Assembly: GCA_027604505.1 (NCBI GenBank)
Contig: JADIIX010000016.1
Coordinates: forward strand, 124,001 to 188,000
Direction of reading: 5' to 3'
Length of the DNA: 64,000 bases
Source: Gonapodya sp. JEL0774
Lineage: Eukaryota; Monoblepharomycota; Monoblepharidomycetes; Monoblepharidales; Gonapodyaceae
Shown: positions 36,732 through 50,045 of the stretch, one piece after another
Position numbering within the stretch: the first letter of the stretch is position 1
Layout: each line of letters starts with the position of its first letter
Program-made: the position numbers and the translations under genes
The notes under the pieces: generated by a model
What the model was told of the DNA's origin: nothing
Database searches by the model: none
What the model saw: only the letters and a program-made list of their open reading frames with translations

Positions 36732-39700
36732 TCAACCCTTTGGAAGAAGATTCGCCATGGAAGCAACTGAAGGACTCTGTATGAATCCTGTTTTCATTAC
36801 GATCCCATCACTTTTTGTGTTGGAATCTCCGTCCTTGGCTGTAAATTCTTGTCTTGTCTTGACATTGATGTCCTCTGAGGTGGATTTGGAGAAGAGTACC
36901 CGGACGGCCGCAAAAGTGGCTATCTTCAGCGGTTGCGATAAGAAAAGCGATTCAATGAAGCTAACAACGAATGAAACAAGCCACTGTCCATGAATGTGGC
37001 ACGAAAATGACTGAAGTTTAGCGTTCCGTAGGCTTTACGGACGAAAGAAAAGCGCAACGTACTGGCTCGGAGACCGCGTTGTCCAACCTCAAACCAATAA
37101 TTAGTGCAATATAGAAAGCGAGTCCTCCAGCCGCAAACGCGAGTGCGTAGGCCACATACAAGAATCCATAGGGCAGGAGCCAACGCGCTTCATCATTCTT
37201 TTTCGATTGCGAAAGATTTTCTTCCCCTTCTTTTCTTCCTTTCTTCGAGGTTCTATTGTACCTAATTCGACGGAACGTCTGTTCGATCAGCATCGACACT
37301 GGCAGAACAATGGCAGAAGAAATAACCCCCGTTGCAATTTTGTGCAAAAGACTGGTTTTCGGTCGAGTGTCGTACTGCCGAAACGACACACACCGATTAG
37401 GTACCGATATGGAGTCGTAACAAGAAGAACACTCACGAAAACGGCAAGAATCGCCATATTACATAAAAGCACCATGAAGCACACGGTTAAACGCTGGACA
37501 CGGGTGTAATGGGACCCTTCCAACCGAGAAAGATGTGGAGCTTTGCTTGACAATGCCCCCCAAAAGAATAACGTTCATACCAAATGGTCTGGTTTCGGCA
37601 AGAGTTGCCGCCCATAAATGATTGTCTCGGAATCCAATGATAATATACTTGAGGAGGGTCAATGAAAAGCTTTGTGCGAGACGCGTTCTAAAACACAGCA
37701 GCTAAATCAGGGCAGCTCAGAGGGAACAACTCAAGACATATTCCTACTAACTTATCGCGAACCGACAAGACAACCGCGGTCCTGTCCCCGATATCGTTCT
37801 CCTGGACCGGCTCCTTAATGATAAAACTCCACTCCTCCGATGTCTCATAGCAACGGACGGAAACCTCCCCAGGCTGCCATGTTGCAGGTGGTCCCTTCGA
37901 GGATAATTTACTTTCTTCCAACTTTATTCCCACTGTTTCCAGGTGTTTGATGTGAGGTGCCTCCACATAAAATATGACCTTTTGGTTCTTCTGCAATAGA
38001 AGGCGCCCCATGTACCAAGTTTTCAATTGAAGCTCTCCACTGTGCTCTCCGTTTGGGCCACGAAATGAAATACTCATTGTGTGGGTGCGGCGGATGTTGG
38101 TGGCTTCACGAGTGTTGATGGTCACCTGGAATATCACAGGTTTGTTTTCTGAGATATGGTTGTACAACAATATTAAAGAACATTGTTTGAGAATATAGGG
38201 TCAACAGACGTACTTACCGTGAATATCCCAGCGAACTTTCTTAAGTTCAACGGCGTCATCTCGCCAGAACTTACAGGCAAGTACAACATACACAACGACT
38301 GAACGGAACGATGAAGGTTCACTTGGGAATACTCTCAGCACCCAAAGTTGACGATAAATCCTACCAATGGCAATGAGAACAGCAAGAATGGTGGGGTTTC
38401 CCTGAATTTGTTCCGCAACGTTTCCAACATCCTGAAAGGGATTGTTGATTGTAATCAGATCGTCCCACGACCCAAAGTCCATCCTGCGGATATTGCGCCA
38501 TGAATTGAAATTCCAGAGTGAATGATATCAAATGAGCAGAGGTTTAAATTCAAATCTGACATTCCCCGCACTCACGTAAACAGGGATAAGTGTGTCGTGC
38601 AGCATTTGAATGGAATGGAGGAACTGCTATTCTGGGTCTGAATTCCCGCAGAGCTCCAATTTCCGATCGTAATATTCCAGAATAAACAGGAAGGGAGGCG
38701 TCCAGGTCGTCCTGGATTGAGATGATCGGTCTACTACACTTTGAAGTGATTGAAGCCGCCATTCAGCAATACACACCTCCTCGAACGAGTGGGACTTGCA
38801 GTTCAATGCAGGAACTCAAATTTTCGACGACTACATCTGTTGCATTCTCTGTAACACCAAAATAAAGTGCTTGGGACCAGTTGCTTTGTTGGAGGTCAGT
38901 TTTCTCTCAGACGGTCGAAATCAAACGCACAAAGCTTTCCTCACCTCAGCGACGCCCCGACTGAATTATCAAATGGGTTCTTATTCATGCTAACAAGATG
39001 TAATTGAAATCCGGTGGAAATCGTTCCCTGTAGTATCTGCGTCAGTGACTGATTGAGATTTGAAACAACAGCACCGTCAGAAGAACTGAGAGATTCAGGA
39101 AGCTGACTGCTGGCCCCGTTGTATACTGTAATTGAAAAAATGGATGAATTGACTTGCGTTGTGTTACCAACGGTTGTACCCTCGCCGAGGGCTTTCGCCA
39201 AATTCTGGATTGCACCAAGAAGTGAAGTGGATACATTACTGCCTACAACATCAAAGCGAGTACTGTTGGTGGCTTTTGTTGCATTCACCGACAAAGCCGA
39301 ACTGTTCTCCGTGCTCATCCAGGCTTTGTCTATGCAAGTAAGAATATTTGTGGCAGCGTCCAGGGATGCCAGCCCACCGTTACCACGGGTCGCTCCCGTA
39401 AGTTTCGAAAAAGTTGTTAGAGCACTAACAAGCAAGGTTTCGTTGAAAGTCGACGGCATAAGCGAGGGGAAGATTGTGCTGGCTGCAGAAAGGGCCTCAG
39501 AGACTCCACTTCCCGGACTCTGTGCGAGAACGACGTCAGAAAGGACATCCAAAACATTGCTCTTCACATTGTCGATCGGCGTGGCTGAATCAGTCGCGGA
39601 CGAGTTGCTTTGTTCATTAACCAGCTGTTTTGCGATCTCAGACACCCCTGAAAGTATCTGAGGCAAGTTCGAAGTAGCGTTTGGAGACACACCAGCCGCT

Positions 39701-41405
39701 CTGAGAATGCCCAAGTTGTTGGACGCCACCGTCATGTCAAATTGTGAAGGTGATGCTAACACCACCACGTCCGTCTGAGTATCCCACGATTCATTATTAT
39801 CTGTACGGTATATTTCGGTGATTAAGGGAACTGTACCATTCACCGACGGGTCGCCTCCAAGCGGTAATTGGAAGCTTTGTAGAGTTGAGTTGAAGGTTGC
39901 AGTCTCAGTCAAGTATACTTTTGACTTGGAGGAAAGTGTGCTATTCAACCACGCAAATCTGTACTTGAGAGCCATGAAGTCGTCGGTCAACCACCCGTCG
40001 CATTGTAGTGTGAAAAGTGTGGCACCTGCCGAGCCAATTTGTGGAGACACGCGGCACTTTCCTCCGATGGGCGATGGGCATTTAGTCAATATAGCGGAGC
40101 ACACTCTCGGATAGTTGCTCGTGCACGAATACAAGGAATTCCCCGAAAGAATGCATGTAGACAGTTTGGGTGGAAAGAATCCGTCGCAATTCGAAGAAAA
40201 CATGTTGTTGCTCAGATCCAACGAATTCAATTCGAGAGCCCCAGACACATTAAAATAACCACTCAACAAGTTTGAGCTGCAGCAGAGGCGAGGAGGTGTG
40301 TACACTCTACTTGTTGTATACAACTATGTGACTCCAAAACTCACCTCAAATTGAGTGAAATTAAACTGGGCATGGATACGAGAGATTGAGCGCCTGCGGC
40401 GGCGAATACGTATGAAATTTGATTCCTGGACAAATCCAGAACACTCAAAGACGGGAGTGTTGACGAAACAAAAGAGGTCAGTGGGCCTGTCAAGCTGTTG
40501 GAATCCAGTCTCAATTCTTGTAATGTTTTATGGTCTAGCACCGGTAGCGCTCCTGAAATATTATTGTTTCCAAGATCGAGTTTCTGCAGTTTTGGAAGAT
40601 TGGGGAAAAATGTCGGGAGAATAGATCCGAGTATCCCACAGCTTCGTGCTTCCAATTGCAAAAGTGTGTCAGAGGCGCCGTTCAACAACGAGAGGTTCCC
40701 GGTCACGTTGGTGTTCGAAATGGAGAGGTATTTAAGTGGTGAGCTGAAGTAAGTGGGAAGAGTTCCAGATATAGAGGTGTTGGCGGCCTGGAAATTGATC
40801 AGCGAATAGCGCAAATTGTTCACAAGTACGGTTCCAATATCTCCTTGAACCTTCAGATTATGAGACACATCCAAGACTCCGAGAAATGGCAAGTACGTTA
40901 GACCGGACTCCAGCGTACCGGTCACAAATGACTTGGGAAATGCGCCTTCAAAAGCATTCCGTGAGATGTTTAGGGTGGTGAGCACAATCAAATTTGAGAC
41001 AAATGCCAGTGATCCGCTGAGGAAGTTAGAAGCCAGGTTAAGTGAGTTCAGAGAACCAGGGAGCGTGGGTACAGATCCGGATAAATTGCAGTTGGACAAA
41101 TCTAATGATGTCAATGCACTAGCATTGGCAACTGAAGCAGGTATTGCGCCCGATAGAGCTATTCCGCTCAGATTCACAGATGCAAGTCGTAAGACGCCAG
41201 TAAAGTTCTGACATCCGAATAATGCTGAGTAATCACAGCAAGAGCCAACCCTCCATGGAACTTTTATGCCAGATTGAGCAAACAGATCTTGGGGAAACGA
41301 GCAATCCGTCGCCTGGTTTGCTAGGTTTGCGACATCAACGTAAGTAACGCTCGAGACTTTCGCAGTCAGAAGAGACAGGAGCGCTGGGAGTATCCACCGT
41401 GACAT
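36732..41405 (-). CDS. polycystin-1-like receptor (LRR-REJ-GPS-PLAT-TM), channel half absent
   Basis: Proposed complement join 36732..37010, 37063..37374, 37437..37516, 37581..37687, 37752..38148, 38218..38298, 38365..38483, 38576..38711, 38777..38883, 38945..40276, 40345..41405 (1336 aa). Order: signal peptide (1-20); about ten plant-type LRRs (60-410); REJ-like region from GGKCRVSPQIG, with TLFTLQCDGW, to about 525; Ser/Thr/Asn-rich stretch; GPS motif CLFWNITIGNWSSAG...KCCTTHLSLFT with the HL|S cleavage site (845-880); TM1 (907-930, ILAVLIAIVVVYVVLAC); PLAT-like domain (947-1060); SHYTRVQRLTV, the conserved polycystin sequence before TM2; TM2-TM5, the last WLVSFVVSFIESLFLSQPLK. In polycystin-1 six more TMs (the TRPP-like part) follow; here a stop comes 57 codons after TM5. 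Role inferred: cell-surface sensor/adhesion GPS protein. Exon 11 could also start at 36983. Confidence 0.85.
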
Positions 41406-41610: not shown

Positions 41611-42578
41611 ATGTTCATTATCGGACTAACAGGCGGCATCGCTACAGGAAAGTCCACTGTCTCGAAGATGCTCTCTTCTCTCTCCCCAGAGGATGGTGGT
41701 CCTGTCTCAGTTATCGATTTGGACCTCATCGCTCGGGACGTGGTGAGACCAGGAATGCCCGGCCTTCGGGACATTGTAAAAACATTTGGAACGGAGATTC
41801 TCACGGACAAAGGAGAAATGGACAGGCCGAAAATGGGGAAGATTGTGTTCGGGGATCCAGAAGCACGGAAGAAGATCAATAAGTGCGTACGTGATTCTAT
41901 GATTGACTTGGGTGCCACATTAGGCACATTGTTAATTCGAGTGCGTATGCTGCGTTGTGATTTGAGGCATCAAGCATGAGGCTGGACATGCTCGGTGGAA
42001 AGCACCTTGACTCCTTGTTCTGGAAACCGACTGACTGAATTTACCTGCGATCTGACTCGCTGGTTTGCTCGTATTAGATGCACACATCCCTACATTCAAA
42101 GAGAAACACTTCGTCAACTGCTGGGATGGTACATATCAGGCGCGCGATTGGTTGTCGTTGATTCTCCCCTCCTGTTCGAAGCCAAACTCGGCATGGGGAT
42201 ACACTTAAAGGTTGTTGTATACTGGTGGGCCCTCGATAATCTTATAATTCCTTACGGTTTGAGTGCTCACCCGCAAATTTGGTTCTGCACAGCCCCGCCT
42301 CAGTGCAACTTGCACGTCTAACCGCTCGGGATTCATCCACACCAGAAGCAGCGCTTCAGCGTATGAACGCCCAAATGCCTATAGAAGAGAAAAAGGGTCT
42401 GGCGGACGTTGTCATCGACAATTCTAATAGCGCTGATGATACTCTCCGCCAGGTGAAGGACTTAGTCCGTAATCACAAACCTGGATTCATGTCTACGTTG
42501 GCTTGGTGGTGTGTTGGCGCTGGACCGGCTTCCGTAGTTTGGGGTGTGCTCACCTTACTGAGGTGGGCAGGACTGTAG
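41611..42578 (+). CDS. CAB5: dephospho-CoA kinase
   Basis: Proposed join 41611..41882, 42078..42224, 42293..42578 (234 aa). P-loop IGLTGGIATGKSTVSKML at the N-terminus, then VIDLDLIARDVVRPG, GTEILTDKGEMDRPKMGKIV, KINKCTHPYIQRETL, VVVDSPLLFEAKLGMG, VVYCPASVQLARLTARDSST and AALQRMNAQMP. Both introns are set by the motifs INKC-THPYI and VVVYC-P. It phosphorylates dephospho-CoA, the last step of coenzyme A synthesis. The C-terminus adds a hydrophobic stretch (FMSTLAWWCVGAGPASVVWG) that could anchor it to a membrane such as the outer mitochondrial membrane. It is divergent from the polycystin-like gene, 205 bp between starts. Confidence 0.93.
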
Positions 42579-47138: not shown

Positions 47139-50045
47139 TCATATCTGAATGGCAATAGACGACTCTCGGTAGAGAATCACCGGGTTTGTAACGCCTGCCA
47201 CGGAGACGGTCGTGAAGGTGCCGGAAAGAGTTTTGCCAGATTCCACCATGACGACAGAGTAGGTTCCGGGCGAAGGCACGTAACCCGCGGTGAACTCCAC
47301 AATCAAACTGCCGCCTCCGATGGTGGCGCTGCCTGCACCCACTACGTGAATTTTGGATCGAGGACTTTGACTGCTAAAGACAACCCTCAGGGTACCGTTT
47401 GCGGTCTGTGCAAAGCCAGTGACTTGGACAGCCTCGGTCACTGTCAAGACCCCACCATCGACATATACCAATCCACGCCCCAAAGCGTACTCTGAGCCCG
47501 CTACGAGAGTACCACCAGATACCAGGGTTCCCCCACTCCACGAGTTCTTTCCAGTGAGTGTCAACTGACCCGTGCCATTTTTAACAAAGAGACCTCCTCC
47601 CGAAATGTCGTTCTTCCAAATGTCTTTCGCACTGAACGATCCGTCGGCGCCATTCATTGTCACTGTGACGTCACCTTCAAACGCGCCGAAGCCATCTGCA
47701 GCGTCGAAGAGGTTGATGCGGCCCCAGCCCTCCTCATCATCCATAAGTGGATAACCTGACGGGAAAGCAGTAGTCTTGAGCACCACCCTCCGTTGATCCG
47801 CGGTAAGGTATGGGAACCGGGTCTCGAGAAGCACTTCTGCGCTTTTGGGGACGTTTGCGGGAACACCCGATGGACCGACCTTCGGAAGATTGTACGTTGC
47901 GCGGCGAAAGTACTCGGCTTTGTTAGTAGCCCAGTCTGCGAAACGATCCTGTATGTAGGACTTGTCAGCGTCGCTCGGATCTTTTAGTTCAGCTCAATCA
48001 AACCTGACCTTTGATAGATCCGAAGTGTGTGCAGCTGCATAGAAAGTGTCCCAATCCGTCAACCCTAAGGCAGTCATGAATGCCTGGCGAGCCTGTGCGA
48101 CTGCGGCTGGCCCTTTTCCTGCGGCTCCACCCACGGCAATGTTGGACGCAGCTGTAGCGTGTGCAAGGATCCTACCGCCTAAAATTTGGAGTCAAGTTTA
48201 CCATCGAACCGTCCAACTAGTTCTCCACAGAACCGCCGACTTACCAATAACATCCGTTGGGCTGTGCATACCTGCAAATATGCGACTCTCTCCGAGTTCT
48301 AGTGCACGCGCTAGCATTTCTTGGAACCGAACTGGGTTTGCGTACGCAATGGCAATAGCTTTTCGAACCCCTTCGGCTGTGTGACCACTTGGCTGCCCAC
48401 CTGAGAGAATGAGAATAAATTGTGTCTCCAGGACTTGACCAAATTAAGATAAGACATAATAGAGTCCTCACCATCCGTGGCGGGCGTCGTCGAAATAGCG
48501 GGTACGAGTTCTGGCAGCACTGAGACAGACTTCGTCCATCGGAACGGACGAGCATACTTGAAAAATCGCTTCGTAGGCTCAGTGGACGCTGATCCGGCCT
48601 GACCGTTCACGAAATCGACAACGAGCCCAAATGCAGTGTTCGTGGCTGATCCAACACCAGGGTCATTTCCAGCATCGCTGTAGGTTTGGTTCAGGGCGTT
48701 GGGTCCTATTTCCGTGATGGTCGTCGTGAGTTGGGCAAGACTGCGGTAGAGATCTGTGAGCGGACCCATTCCATCTGACACAGAGTAACCTTTGTTACGT
48801 CGATCGTCAAGGTATGCAAGCAAACCCTGCGCGGGAGTGCGAGTGGTTGTATGATTCACCACAACCCGCAAGTTTGCTTCGTGAACCACGGCGTTTAATA
48901 CTTTGCCATCAGTAGCATCGCCTGGAATGCCTGTCCAATTTGATGGAGTCACGGCAGGACAGGCGCCATTCGCAGGAAGAGTAATTCCCGCGTCCACTAA
49001 AAGAGTACTCGGTTGCCAGATATCAAGAAACTTGGAGAGGACTCGAACACCAGCGTTGGTGCCTACAGTGACGAAGCACGCATCGTCGCGGCGATTTGTA
49101 GTCCAAGTATCGACATAGGCAACTATGTTGGAATTGACCGGAGCGGTTGCCGGTACTCCCAGTCCCGTTGGTTTAGCAGGAAGTTGGACAGCTTTTGTAG
49201 TTGCAGTGCTGTTCATTCAAGTCATTCCATCAGTGAAGTGGCATTCCCTGTTGAAACACAACACATACGAAGTAGTTTGTGAGAGGGCAGAGGGTTTTGT
49301 CGTTGATGTCGTTGTGATTTTGATGGTTGCTGTGATCAATCTGGAGCGTTACTGAGATATCAGCAATTGAACGATCCTTGTTCAAACAAATTCGCCTACG
49401 TGGTGGGTTTGGAGACAGTAGTTGTGTATTCAAAGTTTTTTGGGACGAACTGCCGGAAAGCAGAGTGGCAAATGTATGAAAGTGAAGCAGAATGATTGAA
49501 TTCTCGCGGAACTTTCAGAGCGATTCATACTGGGGGTCCCATCGCCACTCACATCAATGCACTCAGCACCTATGTTCCAGTACTTCAACGCAAGCGGGAA
49601 GCTAGCAAGGGTTCCATAATCCACAACTTTTCCTCCTTTGACCTTCACGCCATATGCGATCGCGAGGTTCGGGCAGATGATTTGGTCTGAGTCCAGCAGA
49701 TCATCGCACTCCAACTCCGCCCAGGCTTTACGTGTAGCAGTGTCATTGAGTTTTCCCCATGTCCTAAATGCACACGCACCAATGAATGCAGAATCTGTGA
49801 GGTGTGGCACAACGCTACTCACCATTTGTCCGGTGGTGGGTATACAACGCCGAACTGCTGCTGTACATAGTTGCACCACTGTTTCTTTCCGGCAACGGTC
49901 GTGGGTAGAGTCACATCACTTCTAGATTGAGGTCAGTAGGTGTTTCGAGCAGCGCCAGAATGATGTTTTGTACCCACGGGAGGGGTGCTGCCGATGTGAT
50001 GCTAACGCAGGCAGCCAAAAGCGCGATTGACCCGGCGAGATGCAT
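47139..50045 (-). CDS. secreted PAP2 phosphatase fused to autotransporter-type beta-strand repeat
   Basis: Proposed complement join 47139..47948, 48009..48178, 48245..48400, 48472..49208, 49400..49449, 49553..49763, 49823..49918, 49978..50045 (765 aa). A signal peptide (MHLAGSIALLAACVSITSAA) starts the protein. The catalytic core has the three PAP2/acid-phosphatase motifs: KYARPFRW (KX6RP type), GQPSGHT, and SRIFAGMHSPTD (SRX5HX3D). A GWGRINLFDAADGFGAF segment and a beta-rich C-terminus follow, including GTGQLTLTGKNSWSGGTLVS and GGTLVAGS, the signature of the autotransporter-associated beta-strand repeat. From family knowledge both parts, and the fusion, are typical of bacteria. No autotransporter beta-barrel is present. 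Seven introns and a eukaryotic-like signal peptide show it is a resident gene. Substrate unknown (phosphomonoesters likely). Exon 4 (50 nt) is the least certain. Confidence 0.85.

Follow-up and report, generated by a model that had tools for sequence, protein, structure and literature searches.

A putative polycystin-1-type receptor without the channel half in the zoosporic fungus Gonapodya sp. JEL0774

The 64,000-nucleotide stretch of Gonapodya sp. JEL0774 DNA considered here (the window) encodes a predicted 1327 aa receptor of the PKD1 family, to which animal polycystin-1 belongs; the host is a zoosporic fungus (Fungi, Monoblepharomycota). Judged by its sequence, the protein is most likely a self-cleaving PKD1-family adhesion receptor that comprises the part from the ectodomain to the fifth transmembrane helix (TM5) and has no pore of its own, a reading considered probable. 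The features that place it in the family are part of the REJ region, a GPS motif with an HL/S site before TM1, a PLAT domain after TM1, and TM2-TM5; at the level of sequence the finding is confirmed. The receptor would bring the REJ-GPS-PLAT type into the Fungi, and a literature search, judged by the titles listed, returned no polycystin-1-type receptor from a fungus.

Gene model and membrane module

The gene lies on the minus strand, begins with an ATG at 41405, reaches its stop at 36732 and comprises 11 exons, with splicing predicted from the sequence; an earlier note on this DNA had given the same coordinates, strand and exon number, all of which are correct. The ten introns are all GT-AG and 61-92 nt long, and since the lengths of eight of the ten are not divisible by three, the open frame relies on most of them; reading through intron 5 (38364-38299) would meet no stop, yet would insert 22 residues into TM1. 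That the model fuses separate genes, one for an LRR-REJ protein and one for a PLAT membrane protein, or contains some other splicing error is considered very improbable. The exon joins are predictions, the lengths of the two remaining introns are divisible by three, and no product of this locus came back from two database searches; however, exon 2 joins the end of the leucine-rich repeats (LRRs) to REJ, the LRR register is continuous over intron 1, and the animal profile is unbroken from GPS to TM5 across seven introns. A genome query with the receptor's own membrane part returned eight matches (a lower bound), all of them its own exons on contig C16, and no second copy.

The homology to the PKD1 family proposed in the earlier note is upheld from GPS to TM5. 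A profile of seven animal PKD1-like proteins (P0001-P0007) covers residues 841-1275 in a single alignment of 133.1 bits; the fungal sequence is excluded from the profile, whose rows came from a search with the fungal query, three of them being mussel proteins close in sequence to each other. A phmmer search of the PDB matched three sequences, all named polycystin-1 (6a70_B among them), with human polycystin-1 as the best match (E 3.1e-7). Five segments were scored separately with six-row animal profiles (without P0003) against 300 shuffles and the 965 open reading frames (ORFs) of the window; the GPS segment reaches 19.9 bits (best shuffle 3.5), TM2-3 44.2 bits (5.1) and TM4-5 32.7 bits (2.6), so that both ends of the module stand alone. 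The TM1 segment by itself scores 2.5 bits, below its best shuffle (6.5) and no better than chance; the PLAT segment by itself has no match in the spliced protein, and its exon as an ORF scores 5.9 bits against 8.8 for an unrelated window ORF. The proposed assignment of TM1 and PLAT rests on position plus additional evidence.

Exon 7 follows TM1 directly and is modeled as a sequence-diverged PLAT domain; its predicted fold is a confident model that matches the PLAT domains of lipoxygenases, lipases and alpha-toxin, with no polycystin-1 chain among the matches listed (50 in each of two listings). Pairwise PLAT comparisons sum to a score of 186 against 1000 shuffles (mean 127.8, maximum 177); taken singly, the observed scores of the five comparisons were reached by 5, 51, 16, 65 and 27 of the 1000 shuffles, and the sum alone beat all. 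A separate PLAT comparison, with a score of 16.7, falls inside the range of 100 shuffles (maximum 17.9), PDB sequence searches and hhalign give no match or a marginal one, and a genome scan for PF01477 has zero matches, the receptor's own PLAT exon included. The PLAT domain of the earlier note stands as a predicted fold, supported by the model and the summed shuffles, and lacks a match to the Pfam profile. The distribution of N-glycosylation sequons and charge mostly fits the expected topology; 31 sequons lie in the 876-residue ectodomain and none in the 192-residue first inner loop, while 11 of the 36 residues in the TM3-TM4 loop are K or R.

Ectodomain, GPS motif and proposed action

Residues 5-23 of the receptor are hydrophobic and form a candidate signal peptide (seen in the sequence, without a signal-peptide predictor). 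Pfam detects LRR_8 (9e-13) and REJ (PF02010, 29.6 bits with a cut-off of 25, profile positions 314-400 of 452 only) in the spliced protein; the REJ-like region noted earlier is therefore present as a partial profile above the cut-off. In a PDB search (best 60 of 110 sequences, E<=1e-3) plant LRR receptor kinases top the list for the LRR half (GSO1 at E 1.4e-41, FLS2 at 4.1e-38), with animal LGR5 and TLR4 at about 1e-9; the long LRR arrays of plants favor such scores, and the LRRs of polycystin-1 itself lie outside the direct comparison. Because plant receptors are the best matches, the front end may not be an LRR region of the polycystin-1 type; of the polycystin-1 order claimed for this part, the presence of LRRs holds and their type does not follow. 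The region upstream of GPS, expected to be GAIN, is collinear with the animal relatives in the alignment and has an NPF/NPY motif, a likeness not significant by profile alone.

The GPS motif (PF01825) scores exactly at the cut-off of 22.5 bits in the spliced protein and reaches 28.5 bits in the genome scan; HL/S occupies residues 874-876, in agreement with the intact site described before. The motif lacks cysteines 2 and 4 of the four found in all six animal rows examined, a pair that presumably forms one disulfide. A second REJ match (90.1 bits) lies on contig C44 (~148588-154532; L028 1589-7533) and is followed by a GPS-like stretch to which the animal GPS profile gives 15.5 bits (none of 500 shuffles above 4.2), which has no Pfam GPS match and precedes one TM seen by eye. 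A family-2 glycosyltransferase frame (98.7 bits) is directly upstream of this REJ, and the two frames are possibly a single gene; the protein resembles the one-TM SpREJ proteins of the sea urchin. Its GPS (L028 7210-7533) lacks the same two of the four cysteines as the receptor GPS (38578-38694), and this shared absence suggests a fungal GPS subtype.

The receptor would enter the secretory path, fold its GAIN domain and cleave its own chain at the Leu875/Ser876 bond; the outer fragment and the five-TM remainder of 452 residues would stay associated. The LRR head may bind a peptide or a wall or matrix ligand; pulling or ligand binding would then move the outer fragment and expose a stalk starting SLFTMDF, and the change in the stalk would be transmitted via TM1 to the cytosolic PLAT, which may bind acidic lipids or an arrestin-like adaptor. 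Signaling would proceed as in an adhesion receptor or via contact with another membrane protein, rather than as a pore subunit. The PLAT of polycystin-1 is reported to bind phosphatidylserine, PI4P and beta-arrestin, and the TOP domain is the proposed target of the polycystin-1 stalk (PMC9672506); since that domain is absent here, the fungal stalk has to work in another way, the simplest being action on TM1-TM5 or shedding of the outer fragment. A role of LOV-1 in chemosensation that is described as independent of PKD-2 (PMC9829181) is a precedent for function without a partner channel.

Several points weigh against a self-cleaving, poreless PKD1-family receptor. The GAIN region by profile alone scores -1.2 bits, with shuffles up to 4.8; Pfam detects no PLAT in the spliced receptor, and the alignment behind the PLAT model included two animal PKD1L rows; the TM3-TM4 loop, expected to be cytosolic, contains two N-glycosylation sequons. 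The absence of two of the four usual GPS cysteines makes self-cleavage uncertain, and this step is judged only slightly better than an even chance. PF20519 (Polycystin_dom) has no match in the exon-level genome scan; the controls are silent too, so this carries no weight as an absence. Of the three profiles the earlier note had offered as a check, REJ is matched, GAIN is not significant and PLAT has no Pfam match.

The missing channel half and the origin of the receptor

The receptor ends 57 residues past TM5, exactly the tail of the earlier note, inside the stretch that in animals leads on to TM6; TM6-TM11 and the TOP domain, by which an 11-TM TRPP-type subunit is recognized, are absent. In polycystin-1, TM1-TM5 are described as a peripheral unit and TM6-TM11 as the core (PMC7728438), so the receptor ends at a module border. 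No channel remnant is seen downstream, where the next gene, on the opposite strand, ends 61 bases from the receptor. A profile of seven animal channel halves scores -1.9 bits in the receptor, at best 5.2 bits among the window ORFs, and up to 14.0 bits on ORFs of the other loci examined, this in Ion_trans loci on contig C59; the lack of a channel half that had been noted is thus borne out for the receptor and the window.

A partner TRPP channel encoded elsewhere had also been suggested, however no TRPP or PKD2 was found genome-wide, exon by exon, which speaks against the suggestion without proving absence. PF08016 has one match in the exon-level scan, on contig C63; its recheck covered 9 of the 24 PF00520/PF06011 exon matches, and PF08016 occurs in one of these nine. 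As a PKD2 candidate the C63 channel is rejected, since PF00520 fits better (39.0 vs 24.2 bits) and the nearest solved structures are voltage-gated Ca/Na channels. This channel (L003 4305-5203) is a voltage-gated-like cation channel in a fungus, with Cav/Nav chains nearest and CatSper3 lower in the list; we take it to be CatSper-like. For a rough control, an acorn-worm channel half was cut into six 72-residue pieces, of which four match their own Pfam family at E<=1e-3 and two pass the cut-off when scanned directly with Pfam; whole animal proteins as genome queries found nothing and are uninformative because the receptor itself was missed. The channel-half searches are no proof of absence from the genome.

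A two-gene channel, in which the receptor would be the regulatory five-TM half and dock on a separate TRPP-type channel, is rather unlikely. The genome does contain the Cav/Nav-like channel on C63, several consecutive Ion_trans (PF00520) matches on C59, and a fungal TRP (PF06011, 83.8 bits), the family to which S. pombe Pkd2 belongs. However, no Polycystin_dom is matched, the sole PF08016 match is better explained by PF00520, and PKD1-PKD2 pairing is described as running via the TM6-TM11 core and a C-tail coiled coil (PMC7728438, PMC9672506), of which TM6-TM11 are absent here.

Two database searches gave eight relatives (P0001-P0008), all animal: five from 8000 candidates scored and three among 1063. 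Animal PKD1L matches reach E 3.5e-18, and identity to the seven aligned animal proteins is 21-25% (best local 32%). As eligible relatives were limited to ~730-2322 aa and the hits included no product of this genome, the searches do not show that other fungi lack such a receptor. The 46 pattern matches in viral contigs include no relative of the receptor.

A somewhat favored origin is secondary shortening, in which an 11-TM fungal ancestor lost TM6-TM11, perhaps together with PKD2; this is compatible with the proposed mechanism. All eight animal relatives carry channel-half Pfam families, no TRPP is found in this genome, and elsewhere among eukaryotes PKD1 and PKD2 channels are ancient; the end at a module border, the lack of a channel remnant and the opposite-strand gene 61 bases off count on the other side. 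An unfused ancestor is doubtful: a GPS-PLAT-five-TM receptor would later have joined a PKD2-like channel to form polycystin-1, with the fungus keeping the older state. The module border fits such an ancestor, as do two channel-less REJ-GPS proteins in one genome; however, the fungal sequence is single, the relatives give no informative phylogeny, and channel-less members are also described within animals, in the sea urchin (PMC1934368). It is similarly doubtful that Fungi in general keep this poreless ancestor, with the fusion placed in the animal line and the chytrid form carrying a plant-type LRR head, maybe as a surface sensor of the zoospore. The safer interpretation is that the channel half was lost secondarily, and the relatives available do not decide.

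Horizontal transfer of an animal PKD1-like fragment, given a new LRR head in the fungus, is quite improbable. The relatives found are all animal, and gut fungi are reported to have taken a polycystin-1-like lectin domain from animals (PMC6712302); the low identity, the ten short introns and the GPS subtype common to the C44 gene argue the other way, and because of them any transfer would not be recent.

The earlier note had placed the gene in a fungus with flagellar genes, which agrees with the IFT57 found here and with a fungal neighbor, CoaE. IFT57 has four exon matches (171.7 bits combined, cut-off 40), in line with a flagellum, in a search that also gave below-cut-off matches in 3 of 14 control genomes; the flagellum-less Hyaloraphidium is contrasted with Gonapodya in one account (PMC10459994). 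CoaE has its best match in HDU93_002241 of Gonapodya sp. JEL0774, and the next six come from Spizellomyces, Rhizophlyctis, Borealophlyctis, Polychytrium and Chytriomyces. These genera are chytrids. The 185-residue HDU93_002241 equals the first 90 plus the last 94 residues of the 234-residue spliced CoaE, the deposited model omitting the middle exon. Elsewhere in the window a PATR repeat (PF12951, 37.5 bits; 47139-47993, minus strand) lies in an open frame of this fungal contig; PATR repeats are known from bacterial autotransporters, and the frame may be of bacterial origin.

Table 1. Predicted features of the receptor gene and its neighbor, in window coordinates
Feature	Position	Strand	Basis
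Whole gene, 11 exons, 1327 aa receptor	36732..41405	-	spliced reading frame; no other match in genome
Exon 1: hydrophobic N terminus, cap with CC pair, LRRs	40345..41405	-	reading frame, Pfam, PDB search
Exon 2: end of the LRRs, partial REJ, helical GAIN-like region	38945..40276	-	
REJ match (PF02010, C-terminal part of profile)	39796..40074	-	32.4 bits genome scan; 29.6 bits spliced protein
Exon 3: membrane-proximal ectodomain	38777..38883	-	spliced frame
Exon 4: GPS motif	38576..38711	-	PF01825 at 38578-38694
HL/S codons, predicted self-cleavage site Leu875/Ser876	38584..38592	-	
Exon 5: stalk, N-terminal part of TM1	38365..38483	-	
Exon 6: remainder of TM1 and basic cytosolic flank	38218..38298	-	
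Exon 7: predicted PLAT domain, sequence-diverged	37752..38148	-	no Pfam match; predicted fold; shuffles
Exon 8: pre-TM2 segment with HLW motif	37581..37687	-	
Exon 9: TRVQRL motif and TM2	37437..37516	-	
Exon 10: TM3, basic loop, TM4	37063..37374	-	
Exon 11: TM5 (WLVSF..QPLK), 57-residue tail, stop	36732..36983	-	
Neighbor CoaE (dephospho-CoA kinase), not part of receptor	41613..42578	+	

Comparison with known systems

The receptor shares with the 11-TM animal polycystin-1 and PKD1L proteins a partial REJ, a GPS with HL/S or T, TM1, PLAT, TM2-TM5, and the TRVQRL and QP.K motifs; it differs in lacking TM6-TM11 and the TOP domain, and in its plant-like LRR head, two-cysteine GPS and diverged PLAT. 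REJ is not obligatory for the family, as hPKD1L3 is described without it (PMC1934368). Lack of the channel is not new in the family: the sea urchin account gives one TM for SpREJ1, 8 and 9, two for SpREJ2, six for SpREJ7, and eleven with the channel part for SpREJ3-6 (PMC1934368). A channel-less PKD1-type protein is therefore no novelty in itself. SpREJ7 and SpREJ1, 8 and 9 resemble the fungal protein as PKD1-family REJ-GPS proteins without the channel-type last six TM; SpREJ7, however, is an animal protein of 3580 aa with a split REJ and, by its description, six predicted TM (PMC1934368).

Like the adhesion G protein-coupled receptors (GPCRs), the receptor has a large ectodomain with GPS before TM1; it carries five TM plus PLAT where they have seven TM. 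Polycystin-1 can be counted as an atypical adhesion GPCR (PMC13197933), fungal adhesion GPCRs are said to be without N-terminal domains (PMC3251606), and in a 2025 survey limited to adhesion GPCRs, GAIN-bearing ectodomains seem confined to holozoans (PMC12716839). Anaerobic gut fungi are reported to have acquired a polycystin-1-like galactose-binding lectin domain from animals, which is likewise a polycystin-1-related piece in a chytrid-grade fungus; that domain adjoins a glycosyltransferase domain, and the account of it leaves GPS, PLAT and a TM module unmentioned where the domain is described (PMC6712302).

With the plant LRR receptor kinases GSO1, FLS2 and BRI1 the receptor shares the LRR type of its ectodomain, GSO1 being the closest; it differs in having no kinase and another membrane part. 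The role of TM1-TM5 and PLAT of polycystin-1 apart from the channel is, to our knowledge, unsettled; a natural protein with TM1-TM5 and PLAT only would indicate that this part can be a working receptor alone, and would provide a smaller test system.

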